This document shows, in pieces, positions 39,206-47,745 of a stretch of 64,000 nucleotides of DNA. Both the position numbers and the translations under genes were made by a program. Location: the NCBI RefSeq assembly GCF_015751965.1, contig NZ_JADOVH010000003.1, positions 186,001-250,000 on the forward strand, in the 5' to 3' direction. Each line of letters begins with the position of its first letter. The stretch's first letter is position 1. The notes beneath the pieces were generated by a model that searched no databases, was not told the origin of the DNA, and saw nothing but the letters and a program-made list of their open reading frames with translations. The stretch is from Frigoribacterium sp. CG_9.8 (GTDB lineage: Bacteria > Actinomycetota > Actinomycetes > Actinomycetales > Microbacteriaceae).

Positions 39206-40435
39206 GTGTCTGTTCCCACTCAAACCGCGCCCGCAACGGTCTCAACGGGTGCATCGACAGCGCCCGATCATTCTCGCCTCGGGTCCAAGCAACACAGCGA
39301 TGGTGGCTGGGGTCTCGTACCTCTCCAGGTGCGTTCCGCACGCTTCGCGTCGTTCGACGTTACCGACTTCGAGACCGTCACCGGTCATGAAGCCGAGTGG
39401 AAGCACACTCCGGTTGCACGGGTGCAGCCGCTGATCGACGGCACCCTCGACCCGGATATCCGACCCGTCACCGCGACAGCGTCGTCTGACGATTCGGTGA
39501 CCGTCGAATGGATCGACCGCAACGACAGTCGCATCGGTAGTGCCGGCAAACCGGAGGAACGGGCATCCGCTAACGCCTGGAGTGCTTTCGAGTCGGCGCT
39601 GATGGTCACCATCACCGGTGAGCAGCCCTCCGAGATCTCGGTGACCCGATCCGCGCTGGGAACGGGCGCCCGTGCTGCGCACACTGTCATCCACGCAACG
39701 CATCACAGTGTCGGAACTGTCGTGCTCCAGAACAGCGGCGACGCGCTGCTCAGCGAGAATGTCGAAATCATCCTCGATGAGGGTGCCCACCTCACGGTCG
39801 TGACAGTACAGCAGTGGAATGCCTCGGCTGTGCACCTGGCAAGCCACTTCTCGGAAATCGGGCGCGATGCCCGACTGAAGCACGTCGTGGTCTCACTCGG
39901 CGGTTCGGTAGTGCGGGTGAATCCCTCCGCTCATCTCTCGCGTGAGGGTGGAGAAGTCGAGTTGTACGGCGTGTACTTCGCCGACACCGGCCAGCACCTC
40001 GAACAACAGGTCTTCGTCAACCACGATGCCCCCAACACGAAATCGCGCGTGAGCTATAAAGGGGCGCTGCAGGGTGTCGGCGCACACACAGTGTGGGTAG
40101 GCGACGTGCTCATCCGCCCCACCGCCTCCGGAACCGACAGCTACGAGCAAAATCGCAACCTGCTCCTGACGGATGGCGCGCGCGCCGACTCGATCCCGAA
40201 CCTCGAAATCGAGACCGGTGAAATCGCCGGTGCCGGCCACGCGAGTGCTTCCGGCCGATTCGACGATGAGCAGCTGTTCTACCTGCAGGCGCGCGGCATT
40301 GGTGAAGACGAAGCGCGACGACTGGTCGTGCGCGGTTTTCTCTCGGAGATCGTGCAGAAGATCGGATCACCGGCGCTTGAAGAGCGACTGCAGAACGCCA
40401 TCGAAGCCGAACTCGCCCTGAGCACAGCCTCATAA
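39206..40435 (+). CDS. sufD: Fe-S cluster assembly protein SufD
   Basis: A 409-residue SufD, the partner of SufB in the scaffold complex. The beta-helix core shows RVSYKGALQGVGAHTVWVGD near residue 280 and the C-terminal AGHASASGRFDDEQLFYLQARG segment shared with SufB. The GTG start follows the sufB TAG directly with no gap, so translation is likely coupled. The first 60 residues are poorly conserved. Confidence 0.93.
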   Translation: MSVPTQTAPATVSTGASTAPDHSRLGSKQHSDGGWGLVPLQVRSARFASFDVTDFETVTGHEAEWKHTPVARVQPLIDGTLDPDIRPVTATASSDDSVTVEWIDRNDSRIGSAGKPEERASANAWSAFESALMVTITGEQPSEISVTRSALGTGARAAHTVIHATHHSVGTVVLQNSGDALLSENVEIILDEGAHLTVVTVQQWNASAVHLASHFSEIGRDARLKHVVVSLGGSVVRVNPSAHLSREGGEVELYGVYFADTGQHLEQQVFVNHDAPNTKSRVSYKGALQGVGAHTVWVGDVLIRPTASGTDSYEQNRNLLLTDGARADSIPNLEIETGEIAGAGHASASGRFDDEQLFYLQARGIGEDEARRLVVRGFLSEIVQKIGSPALEERLQNAIEAELALSTAS

Positions 40436-40450
40436 TGGCAACAATCGTTG

Positions 40451-40534
40451 CCTAAGCAGAGTCCCAGCCTGAGCAGAGTCTTTGCCCAAACACCGTCTGT
40501 GCCCAAACACCGTCTGTGCAACAACACCGTCTCA
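40451..40534. repeat. 17-bp period tandem repeats between sufD and the Rieske gene
   Basis: Two units of a CCTRAGCAGAGTC type (40451-40467 and 40468-40484) are followed by two exact copies of GCCCAAACACCGTCTGT (40484-40500 and 40501-40517) and a decayed third (40518-40534). A period of 17 is not a multiple of three, so this stretch is not coding, and the Rieske start must lie beyond it. Confidence 0.8.
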
Positions 40535-40555
40535 CCCGGAATGAAAGAAGCGTCA

Positions 40556-40879
40556 GTGACCATCAAGATCTGTGCCGAAAGTGACATCGAACCCGGATCG
40601 GCCGTGCGTGTGGTCGTCGACGGCACCCCCATCGCTGTTGTGCGGGACTCGACGGGAACCGTGCACGCCATCGGTGACACCTGCACGCACGGTGACATCT
40701 CGCTTGCCGAAGGTTTCGTCGAAGACGACACCCTCGAGTGCTGGGCGCACGGCTCCAGATTTTCACTCGTGACCGGTAAACCGATCACCCTTCCGGCCTA
40801 CGATGCGGTTCCCGTCTTCGCGGTATCCATCGTGGACGGTGACGTCTTCATCGACCCGACCCCCGTGGTCATTCCCTAA
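40556..40879 (+). CDS. Rieske [2Fe-2S] ferredoxin
   Basis: About 107 residues with the full Rieske site CTHGDISLAEGF...ECWAHGSRF (C-X-H and C-X2-H), so it binds a 2Fe-2S cluster with two cysteines and two histidines. The frame is open from 40448 but crosses noncoding 17-bp repeats. GTG 40556 (preceded by AAAGAAG) or ATG 40541 are the realistic starts. Such ferredoxins are often found between sufD and sufC in actinobacteria. A role as electron donor for cluster assembly is plausible, not shown. Confidence 0.92.
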   Translation: MTIKICAESDIEPGSAVRVVVDGTPIAVVRDSTGTVHAIGDTCTHGDISLAEGFVEDDTLECWAHGSRFSLVTGKPITLPAYDAVPVFAVSIVDGDVFIDPTPVVIP

Positions 40880-40898
40880 TACACAAGGAGTTCGCACC

Positions 40899-41663
40899 AT
40901 GTCAGTACTCGAAGTCATCGACCTCCACGTGAGTGTCGAAACCGAACAGGGCACCAAGCAGATTCTCAACGGTGTCGACCTCATCGTGAACGAGGGCGAG
41001 ATCCATGCGATCATGGGCCCCAACGGCTCCGGCAAGTCGACCCTCGCGTACACCATCGCCGGGCATCCCAAGTATCACGTGGAGAGTGGATCGGTCACTC
41101 TCGACGGCCAGGACTTGCTCGCTATGCCCGTGGACGCCCGCGCCCGCGCCGGTCTCTTTCTCGCGATGCAGTATCCGGTGGAAATCCCCGGGGTTGCGGT
41201 GACGAACTTCCTGCGCACGGCCAAGACCGCGATCGACGGTGCGCAGCCCCCCATTCGCACCTGGACTAAAGAGGTCACAGAAGCGATGAAGAACCTGCGG
41301 ATGGATGCGTCGTTCAAGGACCGTAATGTGAACGAGGGGTTCTCCGGTGGCGAGAAGAAACGCCACGAGATTCTGCAGCTCGAGCTTCTCAAACCGAAGT
41401 TTGCGATCCTCGACGAGACCGACTCTGGACTGGATGTCGACGCGCTCAAGATCGTCTCCGAGGGTGTGAATCGAGCCAAGGAGAACACCGGGCTCGGTCT
41501 GCTACTGATTACCCACTACACGCGTATCCTCCGTTACATCACGCCCGACTATGTGCATGTCTTCGTGGACGGCCGTGTGGCAGAAGAGGGCGGTGCCGAG
41601 CTGGCCGATCGTCTCGAAAACGAAGGCTACGATCGCTTCCTGGCCCCCGCGAGCCTAGGCTAG
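40899..41663 (+). CDS. sufC: Fe-S cluster assembly ATPase SufC
   Basis: A 254-residue ABC-type ATPase. Walker A is GPNGSGKSTLAY near residue 40, the signature FSGGEKKRHEI is near residue 150, and Walker B ILDETDSGLDVD follows, with the RILRYITPDYVHVFVDGRV end typical of SufC. AAGGAG lies 8 bases before ATG 40899, which rules out the longer frame from 40803 that runs back into the Rieske gene. It powers the SufBC2D complex. Confidence 0.98.
   Translation: MSVLEVIDLHVSVETEQGTKQILNGVDLIVNEGEIHAIMGPNGSGKSTLAYTIAGHPKYHVESGSVTLDGQDLLAMPVDARARAGLFLAMQYPVEIPGVAVTNFLRTAKTAIDGAQPPIRTWTKEVTEAMKNLRMDASFKDRNVNEGFSGGEKKRHEILQLELLKPKFAILDETDSGLDVDALKIVSEGVNRAKENTGLGLLLITHYTRILRYITPDYVHVFVDGRVAEEGGAELADRLENEGYDRFLAPASLG
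41656..41661 (+). promoter_or_regulatory. -10 box TAGGCT inside the sufC end
   Basis: TAGGCT overlaps the last codons of sufC and is six bases before ATG 41668, so the next gene may also have its own leaderless transcript. Confidence 0.4.
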
Positions 41664-41667
41664 GGCC

Positions 41668-41997
41668 ATGGCTGTTGCACTTGCTCCGGCGCTCTTCGAC
41701 CAGGTTGAAGAGGCGCTCAAGGATGTTATGGACCCCGAGCTCGGGATCAATATCGTCGATCTCGGACTCATTTACGATCTCACCTGGGATGACGACAACG
41801 ATGCACTCATCATCAGCATGACGTTGACCAGCGCTGGGTGTCCGCTCACCGATGTGATCGAGGAGCAGACTGCGCAGTCTCTCGATGGGGTGGTTGATCA
41901 GTTCCGGATCAACTGGATCTGGATGCCGCCGTGGGGACCGGAAAAAATTACCGACGACGGCCGCGACATGATGAGGGCACTCGGCTTCTCGATGTAG
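41668..41997 (+). CDS. metal-sulfur cluster biosynthetic factor, SufT/DUF59 (MIP18) family
   Basis: A 109-residue single-domain DUF59 protein with the family start EALKDVMDPELGINIVDLGL and the cysteine motif TSAGCPLTD near residue 55, followed by WMPPWGPEKI. SufT-like proteins help mature Fe-S proteins. It begins 4 bp after sufC and ends the suf run; the next gene is on the other strand. In many actinobacteria sufS and sufU come before it; here they are missing. Confidence 0.92.
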   Translation: MAVALAPALFDQVEEALKDVMDPELGINIVDLGLIYDLTWDDDNDALIISMTLTSAGCPLTDVIEEQTAQSLDGVVDQFRINWIWMPPWGPEKITDDGRDMMRALGFSM

Positions 41998-42011: not shown

Positions 42012-42365
42012 TCAGTCCGCGAAGTACAGCTGCCGGTGCAGACGGCATCCGTCGTTGAATGGAGCTGAGCAGGTCGGACAGGCGCTGAGGTCGAAGTAGG
42101 CAGCGATCGTCAATTCTGTGGAGCAGACTCCACAGAGGAGTGCCCGCTGGTCATGCAGTGACTTTGGCCATTGCTCCGCCTGGTGCCCCGCAGACATTTC
42201 GTGGCAGAGGTGGCACGGGTAGTAGAGACGACAGCAGTAGAACTTGATCGCGATGACGTCGGTCACCGTCGCGTAATGCACGCAGCGGGTCTGGTTGTCG
42301 ATGGTCGCGCCGTGCACCGCCGTGCCACCCTCGGTGGGGCGGTTGGTGAGGCGATCGGCGCTCAT
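42012..42365 (-). CDS. CHY zinc finger protein
   Basis: A 117-residue protein with the CHY-type zinc module: TRCVHY, then FYCCRLYYPCHLCHEMSAGH, LCGVC, and a last CPTCSAPFNDGCRLH. Related domains occur in eukaryotic RING proteins such as Pirh2 and in short bacterial proteins of unknown function. Its ATG overlaps the ecfT stop (ATGA), so it is the last gene of the bioY-ligase-thiolase-ecfA-ecfT operon. A metal-binding or regulatory role for the operon is only a guess. Confidence 0.88.
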   Translation of the reverse strand: MSADRLTNRPTEGGTAVHGATIDNQTRCVHYATVTDVIAIKFYCCRLYYPCHLCHEMSAGHQAEQWPKSLHDQRALLCGVCSTELTIAAYFDLSACPTCSAPFNDGCRLHRQLYFAD

Positions 42366-42958
42366 TCGATTCCCCGTGCCGTGAGCGCATCGGCGAGTTC
42401 GTCCGAATGTTTCAGTGACATCACCAGCAGTGGCACGACGAATCTCTGCGGGCGCACCGGGACCCCTCGTGCGCGCTGTGCCTCGCGTATCTGGGAAGCG
42501 AAACCGCTAATCACGGGTATCGCCGTCATGGTCAGTGCAAGCAGCAGGCCGATGGCAGCCGTGTTGACACGCAATCTTCGCAGCGGTGCCAGCGCATGAT
42601 CCGTGGCATCGAGCAGTGCGGGGATGCGCGTGGTGAGCGTGATCAGTGCGGCAAGTACGATCACGACGAGAACCCGACTCGTGTTGGTAATCGCGTCCAT
42701 CAGCGGCAGAAAAATCACTTGACTGACGAGCATCACCAGCACGATCCAGCGCGAAGTGTAGAGCTGGCGCAGCAGCGTGAGGATTCCGAGCCCTGAACAC
42801 ATATAGAGCGCGACAGTGATCACTCCGGCGAGGGGGAGGCTCCACACGGTGCCTGTGGTCACGGTGATCGCGAGTGCCAACGCCGCAAATACGAGCACCT
42901 TCGCGCCTGCCGGCATGCGGTGGAGCACACTGGTGCCCGGGTGATATAGCGCGATCAT
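42362..42958 (-). CDS. bioN: ECF transporter transmembrane subunit EcfT (BioN-like)
   Basis: A 198-residue membrane protein with four to five hydrophobic helices. Its C-terminal cytosolic part carries two Ala-Arg-Gly motifs (EAQRARGVP and DALTARGIE), which in EcfT proteins couple to the ATPase grooves. It overlaps ecfA upstream by 4 bp and the CHY gene downstream by 4 bp. With BioY in the same operon it most likely forms the BioMNY biotin importer (inference from family and context). Confidence 0.92.
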   Translation of the reverse strand: MIALYHPGTSVLHRMPAGAKVLVFAALALAITVTTGTVWSLPLAGVITVALYMCSGLGILTLLRQLYTSRWIVLVMLVSQVIFLPLMDAITNTSRVLVVIVLAALITLTTRIPALLDATDHALAPLRRLRVNTAAIGLLLALTMTAIPVISGFASQIREAQRARGVPVRPQRFVVPLLVMSLKHSDELADALTARGIE

Positions 42959-43647
42959 GGGTGGTCTCTCTCGTAACGTGCGATGACGGATCGCGGGTCA
43001 CCGTGCTCCAGTAGCATCCCCTCTTTGAATCTCAGTACAACATCGCACCGTGCAGCTAATCGAAGATCATGCGTGACAAGAACGAGTTGCTGGGGGATCT
43101 CATCCAGGAGGCGATTACCGATCTTTCTGCTGTTCGACGCATCGAGCATGGCGGTGGGCTCGTCGGCAACCACCAGATCAGGCTCACCGATGAGGATCGC
43201 ACCGAGGGCGAGAAGCTGCTTCTGGCCACTGGACAAACCGTGGGTCGACGCCTCCGCATGAGCTCCGAGATCGACGGCGGCGATGGTCGATGTCACCCTC
43301 CCATCCACCTCGGCACGAGTGAGCCCCCGGCCGCGCAGCGAGAAGGCAAGATCCTCGGTGACCGTCGGCATCACAATCTGCGCATCCGGATTACTGAAGA
43401 TGAAACCGACCCGCTGCCGCAGCCGTCTGCCGTCACGCAGCGGGTCGAGACCGTGAATCATCACCCTGCCTCTGGTGGGGGAGACCAAGCCGTTGAACAG
43501 CCGGGCGAAGGTCGACTTTCCCGACCCATTCGAGCCGATCACCCCGATCCGCTTCTCATTGAGCGTGATTGACACCTCCCGCAGAGCGGCCCGGCCGGCG
43601 AATTCGACGCAGACGTCCTCGAACCGAATCTCCTGCTGTCCACTCAT
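42955..43647 (-). CDS. bioM: ECF transporter ATP-binding subunit EcfA (BioM-like)
   Basis: A 230-residue ABC ATPase: Walker A GSNGSGKSTFARLF near residue 38, signature LSSGQKQLLALG near residue 130, Walker B LVVADEPTAMLD. The signature begins LSSGQ rather than LSGGQ, which is within the ECF range. The frame runs 47 codons further up into the thiolase gene, but ATG 43647 overlaps the thiolase stop as ATGA and gives MSGQQEIRFEDVCV. It energises the BioY-EcfT importer. Confidence 0.94.
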   Translation of the reverse strand: MSGQQEIRFEDVCVEFAGRAALREVSITLNEKRIGVIGSNGSGKSTFARLFNGLVSPTRGRVMIHGLDPLRDGRRLRQRVGFIFSNPDAQIVMPTVTEDLAFSLRGRGLTRAEVDGRVTSTIAAVDLGAHAEASTHGLSSGQKQLLALGAILIGEPDLVVADEPTAMLDASNSRKIGNRLLDEIPQQLVLVTHDLRLAARCDVVLRFKEGMLLEHGDPRSVIARYERDHP

Positions 43648-44849
43648 CGCACAACCTCGAACAGAGCGGCGACGCCCATCCCGCCACCAACCGCTGCGGT
43701 GGCGATTCCAAAACTGCCCGCCGGAGCATTTTCGTGGACCAGGCGGGTGAACAGGCGCACCACGCTCACTGCACCGCTGGCACCCCACGGATGGCCGAGC
43801 GCGAGCGCCCCGCCCCCGGTGCAGACCCGTGGATCGACCCAGTCCCCGCCGGCGAGGCCGAGCCGGTCGAGCACAGCGAGGGTCTGAGCCGCGAACGCCT
43901 CGACTATTTCGAACGCGGCGACATCGTCGAGACGGAGGCCAGCCAGTTCACACACCCGGTTCACCGCGGCCACCGGACCGATGCCCGGTAGCGCCGGATC
44001 GCATCCGATCGTCGCGTGGGCCACGAGGGCGAGGCCCGGGGCATTCCCACGCACGCTGTTCGCAACAACGGCGACGACTGCGGCGCCATCGGAGATGCGA
44101 CAGGAGTTGCCCGCCGTCACAGTGCCGCTGGACAGTCCACGGGCCGGCGGGTAGAGAGGGGCGAGGCGGGGGAGAAGCGCCAGAATCTGCCGGCGCGGGC
44201 TGTCATCATGTTCGAGCGCCTCGAGTGCGACGATCTCATCGTCAAATCCACCGTCGCGCGCCTGATCGAGTGCACGTCGGTGGCTGCGCGCGGCATAGGC
44301 ATCCTGGCGACAGCGATCGATGCCGGATGCTGCCGCGAGGTCTTGGGCGGCCGGCCCCATCTCTGGATCGGGGAATCCGGGCGGGGTGAACGCCGCACGC
44401 GCATAGGGCACGCCATTGGCGATTCGCAGTGGGGCGGTGGAAGCGCTCTCTGCGCCGCCGGCCAAGATGAGCCGCGGACCTGAGCCGTGGGAGAAATTGC
44501 CACGGGTGGAATCGGCCCGAATCGAATCTGTCGCGGAGATGATCGCCGAGAGCCCACTGCCGCACTGCGTGTCGATAGTTACTCCTGGCACACTCACGTC
44601 GAAACCGGCGCCGAGAGCTGCCCGCCGAGCGATGTTCCCACCCGGGCCCATGCAGTTGCCGAGCACAACATCCGCGATCACGACCGGTGATCCGATGGCT
44701 CGTTCCGCGTCCGCACGGCACGCCCGCAGCACCGGGGCAGCGAGTTGCTCAACACCCAGGCGCGCGAGGCGCATCCCCCTGGTCGAGATCGCAGTTCGAC
44801 GGGCGGCAATCACGACCGCGCTGTACTGGTCGACCCGTAGTTCAGTCAA
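43644..44849 (-). CDS. thiolase family protein (YhfS-like) lacking key catalytic residues
   Basis: A 401-residue thiolase fold. The nucleophile C96 (DTQCGSGLS) and H353 (GHPWGASG) are kept. The second cysteine of the usual CIGGG motif is A386 (GIATAAVGGGMG), and the asparagine of NEAFA is V316 (EIVEAFAAQ). Normal thiolytic or Claisen activity is therefore doubtful. The TTG start overlaps the ligase stop by 8 bp and has GAGGTG upstream; the stop overlaps ecfA. A ligase-thiolase-bioY grouping is known from Bacillus yhfUTS, a predicted BirA regulon member. The role here may be salvage of a biotin precursor acid (inference). Confidence 0.88.
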   Translation of the reverse strand: MTELRVDQYSAVVIAARRTAISTRGMRLARLGVEQLAAPVLRACRADAERAIGSPVVIADVVLGNCMGPGGNIARRAALGAGFDVSVPGVTIDTQCGSGLSAIISATDSIRADSTRGNFSHGSGPRLILAGGAESASTAPLRIANGVPYARAAFTPPGFPDPEMGPAAQDLAAASGIDRCRQDAYAARSHRRALDQARDGGFDDEIVALEALEHDDSPRRQILALLPRLAPLYPPARGLSSGTVTAGNSCRISDGAAVVAVVANSVRGNAPGLALVAHATIGCDPALPGIGPVAAVNRVCELAGLRLDDVAAFEIVEAFAAQTLAVLDRLGLAGGDWVDPRVCTGGGALALGHPWGASGAVSVVRLFTRLVHENAPAGSFGIATAAVGGGMGVAALFEVVR

Positions 44850-46200
44850 GTCTGGTCACCTCACCATTATCGATGGCTCGCCGCACCGCATCGCGGTCTG
44901 GTTTACCGGAGAGCGTTCGCGGGAGGTGGTCGGTGCGGTACCAGCGTCGCGGGAGATGGGAGGGAATAAATCGGCTGCGTGCGTGTGTGCGGAGATCACG
45001 CGCCGTCGGCGTTGCGCCACCGGGAGTCGTCTCGATCAGCACAGCCACCAGGGCACCGAGGCTCGCGTTGGGGATACCGAGCACCACAGCATCCTCGATT
45101 CCGTCAATGGATCGCAATGCCATTTCGACGTCCTCCGGCACCACAGTGGCAGAGCCGGTGAGGATGGCACCATCCAGACGCCCACGAAAGTGCAGACGGT
45201 GCGTGCTGTCCACCTCCACCAGGTCGCCAACTGAGGCCCACCCACCAGGCGCATGCCGCAGTGCGCCATCACTGGCGTTGTATCCAGAGGCGTGAGATCC
45301 AGAGGCGTGAGATCCAGAGGCGTGAGATCCAGAGGCGTGATATCCCGAGGCGAGATATGGCGATCGCACCCACAGTTCGCCCAGAGTGAGTCTGCCTGCA
45401 TCACCAGTGCCTGCATCACCAGCGCTTGGATTTATGCGGACCTCAACCCCCGGGAACGCCAGATAACCGAGACCATCCGTATCGACCGCCACGAAGGAGA
45501 GTTCGGCGGCACCGTAGTACGAGACCACCCTCATGCCCAGGGCTTCTGCCCGACGGCGCAGGGCGATATCGAGGTGCGCACCCCCCACGAATGCCAGGCG
45601 CACCCGGTGCGGGGTCTGGCCGTTCTCGAGTGACTCGACGATTGTGCGCAGCGCATGGGGTGTCCCGTGTACAACCGTCGCGTGCGTGAGGTCGGCCGGG
45701 TCGAACCCGTGGGATATCGGAAGCACGATCGCCGCGCCGACCGCCCTCGCGTGCGCCACCGAGAACAGCGAAAGGGAGGACGATAGCGGTGCGGGCAGGT
45801 ACACGGCATCCGTGCTCTGCAGTTGCATCAGCTCGGTGACCGCGGCGAATGACGATGACCACGAGGCCTCCGATCGCAGTATTAGCCGGGGGGATCCGGT
45901 GCTGCCCGAGCTGAAAGCCGCCCACCCGGTGTCGGAACGTATGGTGTCCTGTCCCGCGTGCATCCGCAGTTGTGCCCAGACGTGTGCATCCCACCGTTCG
46001 TCGCCGAGAAGGGGGATCGAGCCGGCTGTCCGGACCGCAAGGGCCCTCACCAGCCCAGCGACAGGATCATTGGTGCTGATCGGCACGAGTCTGTTCGCCG
46101 GGAATTGCCCCTCGACCGCGGCCAGGCGGATCCGCTCGGTGAATTGCGCCTCGGTCAGCCCGACCTCGCCGCACCACAGAGCGATCCTCTCGATGATCAC
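44842..46200 (-). CDS. adenylate-forming acyl ligase of the bioY operon (YhfT-like)
   Basis: A 452-residue AMP-binding enzyme. The P-loop is SSGSTGSPRLIL, with arginine where most members have lysine. Other motifs are YYGAAELSF, SVGDLV, GRLDGAILTGSATVVPEDVE, and the C-terminal catalytic lysine in LSGKPDRDA. Between SPYLASGY and SVGDLV lies a Gly/Ser/His/Ala repeat made of five 15-bp units. GTG 46200 has AGGAA before it, while GTG 46230 has its only GGAG directly abutting. It is shorter than standard acyl-CoA ligases (about 500-550). It is second in the operon behind bioY. Confidence 0.87.
   Translation of the reverse strand: MIIERIALWCGEVGLTEAQFTERIRLAAVEGQFPANRLVPISTNDPVAGLVRALAVRTAGSIPLLGDERWDAHVWAQLRMHAGQDTIRSDTGWAAFSSGSTGSPRLILRSEASWSSSFAAVTELMQLQSTDAVYLPAPLSSSLSLFSVAHARAVGAAIVLPISHGFDPADLTHATVVHGTPHALRTIVESLENGQTPHRVRLAFVGGAHLDIALRRRAEALGMRVVSYYGAAELSFVAVDTDGLGYLAFPGVEVRINPSAGDAGTGDAGRLTLGELWVRSPYLASGYHASGSHASGSHASGSHASGYNASDGALRHAPGGWASVGDLVEVDSTHRLHFRGRLDGAILTGSATVVPEDVEMALRSIDGIEDAVVLGIPNASLGALVAVLIETTPGGATPTARDLRTHARSRFIPSHLPRRWYRTDHLPRTLSGKPDRDAVRRAIDNGEVTRLD
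45286..45360. repeat. 15-bp tandem repeat inside the acyl ligase gene, five units
   Basis: AGAGGCGTGAGATCC is repeated exactly three times (45286-45330), a fourth unit has one change, and a fifth is more divergent. On the minus strand it encodes pentapeptides of the type SHASG, apparently grown from the native YLASG motif. Confidence 0.9.
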
Positions 46201-46269
46201 CTGATTCCTACTGATCTCACCGCGGCCCACTCCAGAGACCGCAGCATATTTTTCGCAGCACGTCGCGGT

Positions 46270-46893
46270 CTATTCGGGGTCGGATGATTTGTTGTACGCA
46301 GCGACGCGCAACTCGGGAGTGGAGCGCACTGTCTGTTCGAATGCGCGCGGGTAGGCCCGCCAGAGTGCCTGGGTCACCAGGGTAGCCACGATGACCTTCG
46401 CGATATCACCCGGTAAGAATGCCGTGCTGAACAACGCGGTCTGTGCCAGCGGGAGCCCGGTGATGAGGGATTGAAACGGAATTCCGATGGCGTACACGAC
46501 GACGATGCCTCCGATCGCGCAGCCGAGTGCTGTGCGCCACCAGCGGGGCTCCCGATTACCGGAGCGGGCAATAAGGCCGATGACGAAGGCGCCGACGATC
46601 CATCCGATCAGGTACCCCACTGAGGGCCCGGCGAAGACAGCGATACCGCCTCGGCCTCCCGACAGAAGGGGAAGCCCAACCAGGACCAGCACCTCGAAGA
46701 CCAGGATCGCAGCCGCCGCGCGCCACGGCCCGAGGATCGCACCGGCGAGCATCACGCCGAGTGTTTGGGCTGTGATGGGAACCGCTCCACCAAAGACCGT
46801 GATGGCCCCCGGTAGGCCGAGAACAGCCAGAATGGCCGCAAATACGGCAATGCGGGTGATATCGCGGATGCTGAAGGTGGGTCGGATTCCCAT
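46270..46893 (-). CDS. bioY: biotin transporter BioY (ECF S component)
   Basis: A 207-residue integral membrane protein with six hydrophobic segments and the BioY landmarks GAVPITAQTLGVMLAGA near residue 35, GGRGGIAVFAGPSVGYLIG near residue 80, and a late LPGDIAKVIVA. It captures biotin and works with EcfA/EcfT encoded 2.6 kb downstream. ATG 46893 opens the six-gene operon. The intergenic region upstream holds two BioQ-type palindromes shared with the divergent TetR gene. Confidence 0.95.
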   Translation of the reverse strand: MGIRPTFSIRDITRIAVFAAILAVLGLPGAITVFGGAVPITAQTLGVMLAGAILGPWRAAAAILVFEVLVLVGLPLLSGGRGGIAVFAGPSVGYLIGWIVGAFVIGLIARSGNREPRWWRTALGCAIGGIVVVYAIGIPFQSLITGLPLAQTALFSTAFLPGDIAKVIVATLVTQALWRAYPRAFEQTVRSTPELRVAAYNKSSDPE

Positions 46894-46952
46894 CGGGGTG
46901 TGCTCGTTTCGTCGCTGTGCGGGGAATGGGGCGGCGCCAGTCGGCGCGGTCC

Positions 46953-46980
46953 TGAACGGTGTTCACCTGAACGCTGTTCT
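46953..46980. promoter_or_regulatory. tandem BioQ-type operators between bioY and the TetR gene
   Basis: Two palindromes TGAAC-GGT-GTTCA (46953-46965) and TGAAC-GCT-GTTCT (46968-46980) lie with centres 15 bp apart. The published BioQ box of Corynebacterium is TGAAC-N3-GTTAC, as I recall it. The second operator overlaps the -35 element of the TetR promoter, which suggests autoregulation together with control of bioY. Confidence 0.75.
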
Positions 46981-46995
46981 AGATGTCGTTAGACT
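46967..46995 (+). promoter_or_regulatory. promoter of the TetR regulator
   Basis: CTGAAC (46967-46972), a 17-bp spacer and TAGACT (46990-46995) form a good promoter, with the start predicted a few bases before ATG 47005. A minus-strand candidate for bioY is TTGTGT-N18-TAGAAC in the same interval (weaker). Confidence 0.55.
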
Positions 46996-47004
46996 ACCCA
47001 CACA

Positions 47005-47745
47005 ATGACCCAGCCCGGAACCGGTGCCGCGAAGGCGGCGCGCCACACTCGCGAAGATGTCGTCGTCGCAGCCCTCGGCATTCTCGACCAGTACGGACTG
47101 GCCGACCTGACGATGCGACGTCTCGGTGCAGTTCTTGACGTGCAACCGAGTGCCCTGTACTGGCATTTCGCGAACAAACAGACTCTTCTCGCATCAATCG
47201 CCGACCGGATTGTGGAACGGGCGCGTTTCGTGCCGCAGACCGACGATGCGTTCGCCGCAGCTTCAGTCACCGGTGGCCAGTGGCGGGGTGCAACCCGCGA
47301 CGAGGCGTACGCCCTTCGCGACGCACTGCTGGCGTTCCGGGATGGTGCAGAGCTGGTGTCGAGCACACTCGCGCTCGGCCTCGGGGCTGGCCTGCCGATA
47401 ACGCGGCTCACCGCGTCGATCCGGCGCGGGGGCTTCGACCGCAGGACAAGCGGCATCGCCGCGGCAGCCATCGTCCATTTTGTGCTCGGCCACGTCTCGC
47501 ATGAACAGCAGAGGCTGCAAGCGGACAGTCTCGGAGTGGTCGCCGAGGCTGCGTCTGCCCACCCAGCGTCTGCCCACCCAGCATCTGCCCACCCAGCATC
47601 TGCCCACCCCACGTCTGCGCACCCCACAACGGCCGGGTCTGTTCCGCAGGCGATCGAATCGTTCGAGTTCGGCATTTCGCTTCTTGTTGCAGGTCTCGAT
47701 GTTCAGCATCGGCAGGCAAGCCAGCCCACCACGAAGCCGGTGTGA
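47005..47745 (+). CDS. TetR family regulator, probable BioQ
   Basis: A 246-residue TetR regulator. The N-terminal helix-turn-helix covers about residues 15-60 (REDVVVAALGILDQYG, then LDVQPSALYWHFANKQTLL). The C-terminal ligand domain is interrupted near residues 183-208 by five Ala-Ser-Ala-His-Pro units encoded by a 15-bp tandem repeat. It is divergent from bioY and shares two TGAAC-N3-GTTC operators with it. BioQ, a TetR repressor of biotin genes in Corynebacterium and Mycobacterium, is the closest functional match by site and context; I cannot confirm orthology from sequence alone. Confidence 0.8.
   Translation: MTQPGTGAAKAARHTREDVVVAALGILDQYGLADLTMRRLGAVLDVQPSALYWHFANKQTLLASIADRIVERARFVPQTDDAFAAASVTGGQWRGATRDEAYALRDALLAFRDGAELVSSTLALGLGAGLPITRLTASIRRGGFDRRTSGIAAAAIVHFVLGHVSHEQQRLQADSLGVVAEAASAHPASAHPASAHPASAHPTSAHPTTAGSVPQAIESFEFGISLLVAGLDVQHRQASQPTTKPV
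47551..47625. repeat. 15-bp tandem repeat inside the TetR gene, five units
   Basis: GCGTCTGCCCACCCA occurs twice exactly (47551-47580), followed by three units with one to three changes. It encodes Ala/Thr-Ser-Ala-His-Pro pentapeptides. Confidence 0.9.

Follow-up and report, generated by a model that had tools for sequence, protein, structure and literature searches.

A predicted BioQ-controlled biotin uptake operon of Frigoribacterium that includes an acid:CoA ligase and an altered thiolase

Among the described systems closest to the locus reported here are the BioQ regulons of Corynebacterium and Mycobacterium smegmatis, and the yhfT-yhfS genes of Staphylococcus aureus together with Bacillus yhfUTS. 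Both BioQ in combination with the biotin importer BioYMN and BirA control of yhfTS in Staphylococcus and Bacillus subtilis are already known. Passages of earlier papers give TGAAC-N3-GTTCA as the BioQ consensus (PMC3398298), mention that RegPrecise holds BioQ regulons (PMC6593275) and, in a review, attribute control of yhfTS in B. subtilis to BirA (PMC11089781). Passages on S. aureus report that BirA controls yhfS-yhfT, with a mismatch in its site (PMC6391492), and describe the two genes only as encoding a putative fatty acid ligase and an acyltransferase under biotin control. Here we describe an operon in a 64,000-nucleotide stretch of Frigoribacterium sp. CG_9.8 (contig NZ_JADOVH010000003.1, positions 186,001 to 250,000; hereafter the window) that joins a BioQ-type regulator and a biotin importer to a ligase gene and a thiolase-like gene (hereafter the pair).

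As the original prediction, made from the sequence alone, had claimed, the window carries six genes on one strand and a divergent tetR gene (Table 1). The claimed overlaps of 4 to 8 bp from the ligase gene onward measured 8 bp at the ligase/thiolase-like junction and 4 bp at each of the next three, while bioY and the ligase gene do not overlap (an alternative GTG at 46200 is also possible as ligase start). BioY, EcfA and EcfT are encoded in this one operon, and its bioY is the sole BioY match of the genome. The 111-bp gap between tetR and bioY contains both TGAAC-N3-GTTC palindromes at the predicted positions, albeit the second with one end mismatch. The locus resembles the BioQ regulons of Corynebacterium and M. 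smegmatis in its TetR repressor kin, its TGAAC-N3-GTTCA box and its presumed control of bio genes, but differs from them in having tandem boxes 15 bp apart, a tetR gene divergent from bioY, a host that shows no biotin synthase, and the pair within the operon.

Table 1. Features of the predicted BioQ operon, in window coordinates
Feature	Position	Strand	Basis
tetR, predicted BioQ-type repressor gene, 246 aa	47005-47745	+	TetR_N + TetR_C_1
Candidate BioQ box 2, TGAACGCTGTTCT, one end mismatch	46968-46980	.	15 bp from box 1
Candidate BioQ box 1, TGAACGGTGTTCA, perfect 13-bp palindrome	46953-46965	.	sequence pattern
bioY, biotin energy-coupling factor (ECF) S component, 207 aa	46270-46893	-	PF02632 1.9e-36
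AMP-forming acid:CoA ligase, 462 aa, GTG start	44842-46230	-	AMP-binding + AMP-binding_C; best NCBIfam PRK07638, below cut-off
Thiolase-like condensing enzyme (putative) without second catalytic Cys, TTG start	43644-44849	-	Thiolase_N/C; best NCBIfam PRK06690, below cut-off; thiolase fold
ecfA (bioM-like), ATPase of biotin ECF transporter	42955-43647	-	ABC_tran; best NCBIfam ECF_ATPase_1, below its cut-off
ecfT (bioN-like, CbiQ), transmembrane component	42362-42958	-	PF02361 CbiQ 9.5e-11
zf-CHY gene, small protein of 117 aa, last gene of operon	42012-42365	-	PF05495 2.4e-09

Judged by its sequence kinship, the TetR protein is a BioQ. Its best solved structures are 5yej, 5xs9 and 5yek (8.6e-31 to 9.3e-31), which we take to be M. 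smegmatis BioQ, a literature search having given no confirmation. When 246 genomes of the phylum were scanned, TetR matches dropped in score from at least 187 bits (five genomes besides that of the window) to at most 120 bits, and the genes of the five next-best TetR proteins all adjoin bioB (5/5), with a box in between. A maximum-likelihood tree of 65 rows then placed the window protein in a BioQ clade of 42 rows (support 100/100), apart from 23 other TetR proteins and together with the bioY-linked TetRs, the bioB-adjacent TetRs (six loci plus a Protein Data Bank fragment, the L229 TetR being left out) and 5xs9, so that the expected grouping with BioQ proteins was borne out. One protein labelled 'other' (L110) also falls inside this clade, and its locus holds a tandem box too. 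The biotin protein ligase of the genome showed no helix-turn-helix (HTH) or other DNA-binding domain in a family search and is therefore unlikely to be a repressor; BirA was rejected as the local repressor on this lack of an HTH family match (a second, weaker BPL/LplA/LipB match was not examined).

Three strand-matches of the box fall in the window against 0.43 expected, a count reached in 1 of 100 shuffles. The whole 2.85-Mb genome holds 13 distinct TGAACNNNGTTC sites (14 strand-matches; control 4), and a single TGAACNNNGTTC box is not rare there. The 15-bp spacing of the two operon boxes corresponds to about 1.4 helical turns, and the phased pair of boxes, GAACNNNGTTC-N4-GAACNNNGTTC, occurs once in this genome. 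Across 150 genomes of the family it was found at 31 places in 29 genomes, and its backwards control in none (0 of 150). All 31 places are at bioY or at the ligase/thiolase-like pair: 15, window included, are upstream of bioY followed by the pair, 14 are upstream of bioY without the pair, and 2 (G017, G098) are upstream of the pair alone, with bioY-ecfA-ecfT elsewhere behind its own tandem. Two of the 14 (G052 and G019) have a weak BioY by tblastn (45 and 55 bits), and Pfam calls both BioY (106 and 116 bits). A TetR gene lies on the opposite side of the tandem box in each of the 12 places fetched for this check.

In the genome-wide scan, no biotin gene was recognised at the other sites, and the phased tandem was found at bioY. 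The other 11 TGAACNNNGTTC sites were rejected as regulon members: all are single, nine fall within long open reading frames, and the two intergenic ones adjoin a GFO/IDH/MocA oxidoreductase gene and a DndB-like gene. In relatives, on the other hand, the palindrome was seen upstream of further biotin genes, as had been expected. Over its cut-off, bioB was found in 3 of the 150 family genomes (G070, G135, G078); boxes precede it in G070, and in G135 they separate tetR from a bioY/bioB cluster. The original prediction gave the BioQ consensus as TGAAC-N3-GTTAC, which differs from the TGAAC-N3-GTTCA printed in a passage of PMC3398298. By eye, TATAGT stands immediately before the first box, on the bioY side, in 8 of 18 upstream sequences, which fits promoter occlusion; it was not seen in the window's own upstream sequence, and scanning the tetR-bioY gap for promoters and terminators gave no hit. 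Given the protein tree, the boxes at bioB and bioY in relatives, and the 31 of 31 tandem places, the operon is almost certainly regulated by BioQ, and the pair, which has its own tandem box in G017 and G098, appears to be co-regulated with biotin import.

The host seems unable to make biotin, and would be an auxotroph by gene content. In the window's genome the best bioB match reached 32 bits, under the cut-off of 225, and no match to bioD was obtained, the biotin-synthesis searches having covered bioB and bioD, not bioF or bioA. With neither gene found, pimelate, 7-keto-8-aminopelargonic acid (KAPA), 7,8-diaminopelargonic acid (DAPA) and dethiobiotin would not be convertible to biotin by any known route. 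Throughout the family, bioB over cut-off is missing in 147 of the 150 genomes. The pair is held by 25 of the 150 (24 with a thiolase-like match of at least 52%, plus G070 at 44%), and all of these except G070 are without bioB over cut-off.

The ligase looks like an intact ANL acid:CoA ligase. Its core motifs (S108-G109, YYGAAE, G335-D336 and R351-x-D353) and its catalytic Lys443 are invariant in 24 of 24 rows, and its predicted structure has the ANL fold. The model is closest to CytC1, MatB, McbA and MenE, with benzoate ligases lower and fatty-acyl ligases at ranks 38 and 50 only, although such modelled neighbours do not give the ligase substrate. Against its best NCBIfam model it scored 132 bits (curated cut-off 518) and the thiolase-like protein 282 bits (curated cut-off 498); the S. 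aureus ligase and thiolase-like proteins are also under these cut-offs, at 271 and 395 bits. We take PRK07638 and PRK06690 to stand for yhfT and yhfS. On balance, the substrate of the pair is probably a biotin-linked acid.

The label 'thiolase' proved right for the fold and wrong for the catalytic residues. Among the 50 structure matches listed for the predicted structure (mean predicted local distance difference test score 88.5), only thiolase-family entries were found, one of which is titled by a Thermus protein number alone. Like the canonical thiolases (FadA, BktB and the Zoogloea thiolase), the enzyme has the nucleophilic Cys (C96) and the GHP His (H353); unlike them, it has neither the NEAF Asn nor the CxGGG Cys, an alignment with solved thiolases showing EIVEAF in place of the ELNEAF motif and AVGGG in place of C-I-G-[GV]-G, and it carries a Trp after GHP and, at 288, a Pro instead of the Met found in 25 of 27 ordinary thiolases. 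The same changes run through 106 family rows (97 distinct genes, nine of them in twice; 1 to 3 gap rows per position were left out of the counts). Cys96 is present in 106/106, His353 in 105/105 and Trp355 in 104/105 rows, the NEAF Asn (V316 in the window) has become Val in 99 and Thr in 6 of 105, and the second catalytic Cys (A386 in the window) has become Ser in 70 and Ala in 33 of the 103 readable rows. Ordinary thiolases have both the NEAF Asn and the second Cys in 27/27.

In a tree of 55 thiolases, the 28 altered ones were on one side of a branch with support 100/99; G157, G438 and G346 are altered but nearer ordinary thiolases, and G157 keeps the Asn. A ligase match was present in the searched locus of all 28 altered thiolases (in G424 downstream of ecfT), and within 1.5 kb of only 1 of the 27 ordinary ones (L097). 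In thiolases, it is the second Cys that accepts the acetyl-CoA proton during the Claisen step, so that an enzyme missing it is unlikely to carry out normal thiolysis or acetyl-CoA condensation (another base is possible); acyl transfer or decarboxylative condensation needs no such base.

Among 24 relatives of the family scan, bioY adjoins the pair in 22. Upstream, 15 have tetR and a box, 2 have a box without adjacent tetR, 6 have neither, and in 1 the contig ends early. Those six are L035, L037 and L052-L055, of which L054 carries one lone box some 1 kb upstream. By eye, a TTGTACGGC stretch recurs upstream of bioY in three of L052-L055, and a close form of it in the fourth; this stretch may belong to another regulator.

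Named genomes were scanned with the ligase alignment and the peptide pattern YYGAAELS; from the 299 relatives so obtained, the best 80 were selected for examination (ligases without YYGAAELS are outside this sample). The thiolase-like gene adjoins the ligase gene in 79 of these 80 loci, the remaining one being cut by a contig end. They include bioY in 74, a box upstream in 72, ecfA in 70, ecfT in 69, tetR in 60 and zf-CHY in 42 cases (L229 was scored as a miss for a box upstream of bioY, although boxes precede its bioB), and span Microbacteriaceae to Micromonospora, Asanoa, Actinoplanes, Kribbella, Kineosporia, Promicromonospora, Brachybacterium and Arthrobacter. In Garicola koreensis (L229, 5223-11287), tetR, two boxes, bioB, bioY, ecfA, ecfT, ligase and thiolase-like genes follow one another in that order on one strand, and a single BioQ operon may there cover both biotin synthase and the pair. 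In a genome of the same genus as the window (G139; L033, L146), tetR-box-bioY loci occur twice, once with the pair and once with ecfA-ecfT-CHY. Two class-level relatives, L138 (G199) and L139 (G424), have an AMP ligase downstream of ecfT, which is a second one in G199 and the only ligase match of the locus in G424.

A bioY-adjacent pair occurs in two phyla. It is found with ecfA-ecfT-bioY in two Azospirillum records and on Sinorhizobium meliloti pSymB, where the ligase is unannotated and was found by tblastn, while on Rhizobium etli p42f the pair has no bioY in the stretch read and a thioesterase gene directly upstream. According to Table 1 of PMC12445080, a BioY gene, SMc00965 (AMP-binding) and SMc00966 (thiolase family) are down together in a nolR+ strain of S. 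meliloti. The Azospirillum, Sinorhizobium and Streptantibioticus cassettes share the five parts ecfA, ecfT, bioY, ligase and thiolase-like gene with the window, but in a differing order (ecfA-ecfT-bioY-ligase-thiolase-like), and no BioQ box was seen in the three checked (L247, L253, L255). Six proteins, from Staphylococcus, Rhizobium, Azospirillum (two), Sinorhizobium and Streptantibioticus, retain the Asn and have Gly at the position of the second Cys (6/6). The biotin-linked thiolase-like proteins of three phyla thus have in common that the second Cys is missing, that GHP is followed by an aromatic residue and that DxQCGSG surrounds the nucleophile.

The S. aureus pair, presumably vraA/vraB, is preceded by AATGTTAAC-N15-GTTTACATT, which looks like a BirA site. 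We infer that this pair is the yhfS-yhfT described in PMC6391492. It resembles the window's in being a ligase and a thiolase-like gene under biotin control, in the loss of the second Cys (to Gly), and in sharing its two best NCBIfam models, PRK07638 and PRK06690; the two thiolase-like proteins are 40% identical over aligned columns. It differs in being under BirA instead of BioQ, in keeping the NEAF Asn, and in having no bioY within a 9-kb stretch around it. No significant family match was obtained for the small genes that follow the pair in S. aureus.

Further genes stand beside the pair in other genera. A YbgC/FadM-like thioesterase and a PIG3/acrylyl-CoA-reductase-like medium-chain dehydrogenase/reductase (MDR) are encoded next to it on Rhizobium plasmids (L246, L252 and L254 by tblastn, L250 by annotation), on S. 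meliloti pSymB and on Streptantibioticus pSCAT; family models, applied to the proteins of R. etli and S. meliloti, gave NCBIfam scores below cut-offs. The two genes set the Sinorhizobium and Streptantibioticus cassettes apart from the window, and in Streptantibioticus they are directly upstream of ecfA-ecfT-bioY-ligase-thiolase in one tight cluster. These neighbours hint at a pathway: to lengthen an imported acid by two carbons and release it, one would want a ligase, a condensing enzyme, a reductase and a thioesterase.

Seen with bioY, with its altered thiolase and with such thioesterase and reductase neighbours, the pair may rebuild damaged forms of biotin. With a probability of roughly four in ten, we read the window's locus as a BioQ-repressed biotin-acquisition and salvage operon of an auxotroph, in which the pair lengthens imported shortened biotin. 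The divergently encoded BioQ would bind the two 15-bp-phased boxes over the shared promoter and repress the operon, and upon biotin shortage the BioY-EcfAT importer, the ligase and the thiolase-like enzyme would be made. The ligase would convert an imported ring-bearing acid, for example bisnorbiotin (whose side chain is two carbons short), to its CoA ester. The thiolase-like enzyme, with Cys96 and His353 kept and the base Cys lost, would then add two carbons from a malonyl donor by a decarboxylative, ketosynthase-like condensation, after which general fatty-acid enzymes would reduce the product and a thioesterase would release biotin. This C2 repair of a bisnorbiotin-like acid is put forward tentatively. 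It resembles BioZ/KAS III, by analogy only, in the proposed decarboxylative C2 extension for biotin; BioZ, by contrast, makes a pimeloyl thioester and needs bioFADB. More speculatively, an as yet undescribed biotin-vitamer salvage pathway might span Actinomycetota, Pseudomonadota and Bacillota under BioQ, BirA and other regulators, with a dedicated acid:CoA ligase and a thiolase-turned-ketosynthase rebuilding the valeryl side chain of shortened biotins.

Several observations weigh against this salvage reading. BioQ control is not universal, to judge from the six of 24 pair-bearing relatives with neither tetR nor promoter box and from G078, where no box adjoins bioB. The NEAF Asn is lost as well as the second Cys, and the enzyme could merely transfer or hydrolyse acyl groups. 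Bisnorbiotin is, in passages of PMC9106636, a human biotin breakdown product (13-23% of total biotin in 24-h urine) and documented there for humans only, its presence for soil or water bacteria being an assumption. Finally, relatives of the MDR, the thioesterase and an Azospirillum major facilitator superfamily protein were absent, at 1e-8, from all 80 of the named actinobacterial loci, and reduction and release would have to be supplied from elsewhere in the window's cell.

Acetyl-CoA carboxylase fails in biotin shortage, and the pair might serve in fatty-acid sparing, the ligase activating outside fatty acids and the thiolase-like enzyme helping to lengthen or exchange them. A biotin-responsive regulator would fit this equally well, and relatives of the two proteins are named acyl-CoA synthetase, long-chain fatty acid ligase and acetyl-CoA acyltransferase in NCBIfam and in papers. 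We nevertheless consider it unlikely, as the pair accompanies bioY in two phyla, fatty-acyl ligases come far down among the ligase's structure neighbours, and the loss of the second Cys argues against a malonyl-free condensation. Also unlikely is that the ligase makes biotinyl-CoA from biotin itself to hold it in the cell while the thiolase-like enzyme transfers or hydrolyses this acyl group via Cys96-His353. The intact ligase and the retention of these two residues alongside loss of the Claisen residues speak for such trapping, but the genome already has a biotin protein ligase, and the thioesterase beside the pair in three genera would reverse it.

A thiolase fold adjoining an acid:CoA ligase also brings beta-oxidation to mind, with the pair degrading biotin or analogues with longer side chains. 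This is very unlikely: the second catalytic Cys is missing in every readable row, an operon for biotin starvation should not destroy biotin, and no acyl-CoA dehydrogenase or hydratase appeared in the family scans of the seven genes. Least probable of all is that the pair makes pimeloyl-CoA, with a BioW-like ligase acting on pimelate or glutarate. Some bioB-bearing relatives do hold the pair (G070 and Garicola koreensis), but bioB and bioD, which belong to the ring pathway that such a route calls for, were not found in the window's genome, and nearly all family genomes with the pair are in the same position as to bioB. Thus the precursor activation that the original prediction allowed for has no known route here. 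Of the single regulon that it saw as joining biotin import to the activation of a precursor or a side-chain acid, co-regulation of the pair stands and the precursor part falls; side-chain acid activation is the reading we favour.

Three further features of the locus are worth recording. The tetR gene (47551-47624) and the ligase gene (45282-45352), two unrelated operon genes, each contain a 15-bp repeat in nearly five copies, the repeats encoding SAHPA-type and ASGSH-type peptides; such inserts are missing from most aligned relatives, a few of which carry other inserts there. A suf-like (Fe-S assembly) cluster, read by eye at 39206-41997, is convergent with the operon and ends 14 bp away from it. 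The zf-CHY gene trails biotin operons both with and without the pair (window; L241, L244, L051), and may be a member of the BioQ regulon.

As far as our searches show, three things are new: a BioQ regulon with tandem boxes to which the pair belongs, the loss of the base Cys in all biotin-linked proteins examined, and the salvage reading; the literature search, which covered titles and some passages and is not proof of absence, yielded no title on this pair or on bacterial bisnorbiotin salvage. The residue loss, the auxotrophy and the thioesterase and reductase neighbours narrow the function of the pair to a few reactions. If the salvage reading is true, biotin auxotrophs can feed on biotin breakdown products. 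The usable biotin forms listed in one large study are biotin, dethiobiotin, DAPA and KAPA (PMC6593275), and predictions of vitamin needs in microbial communities that build on these forms would then need widening.

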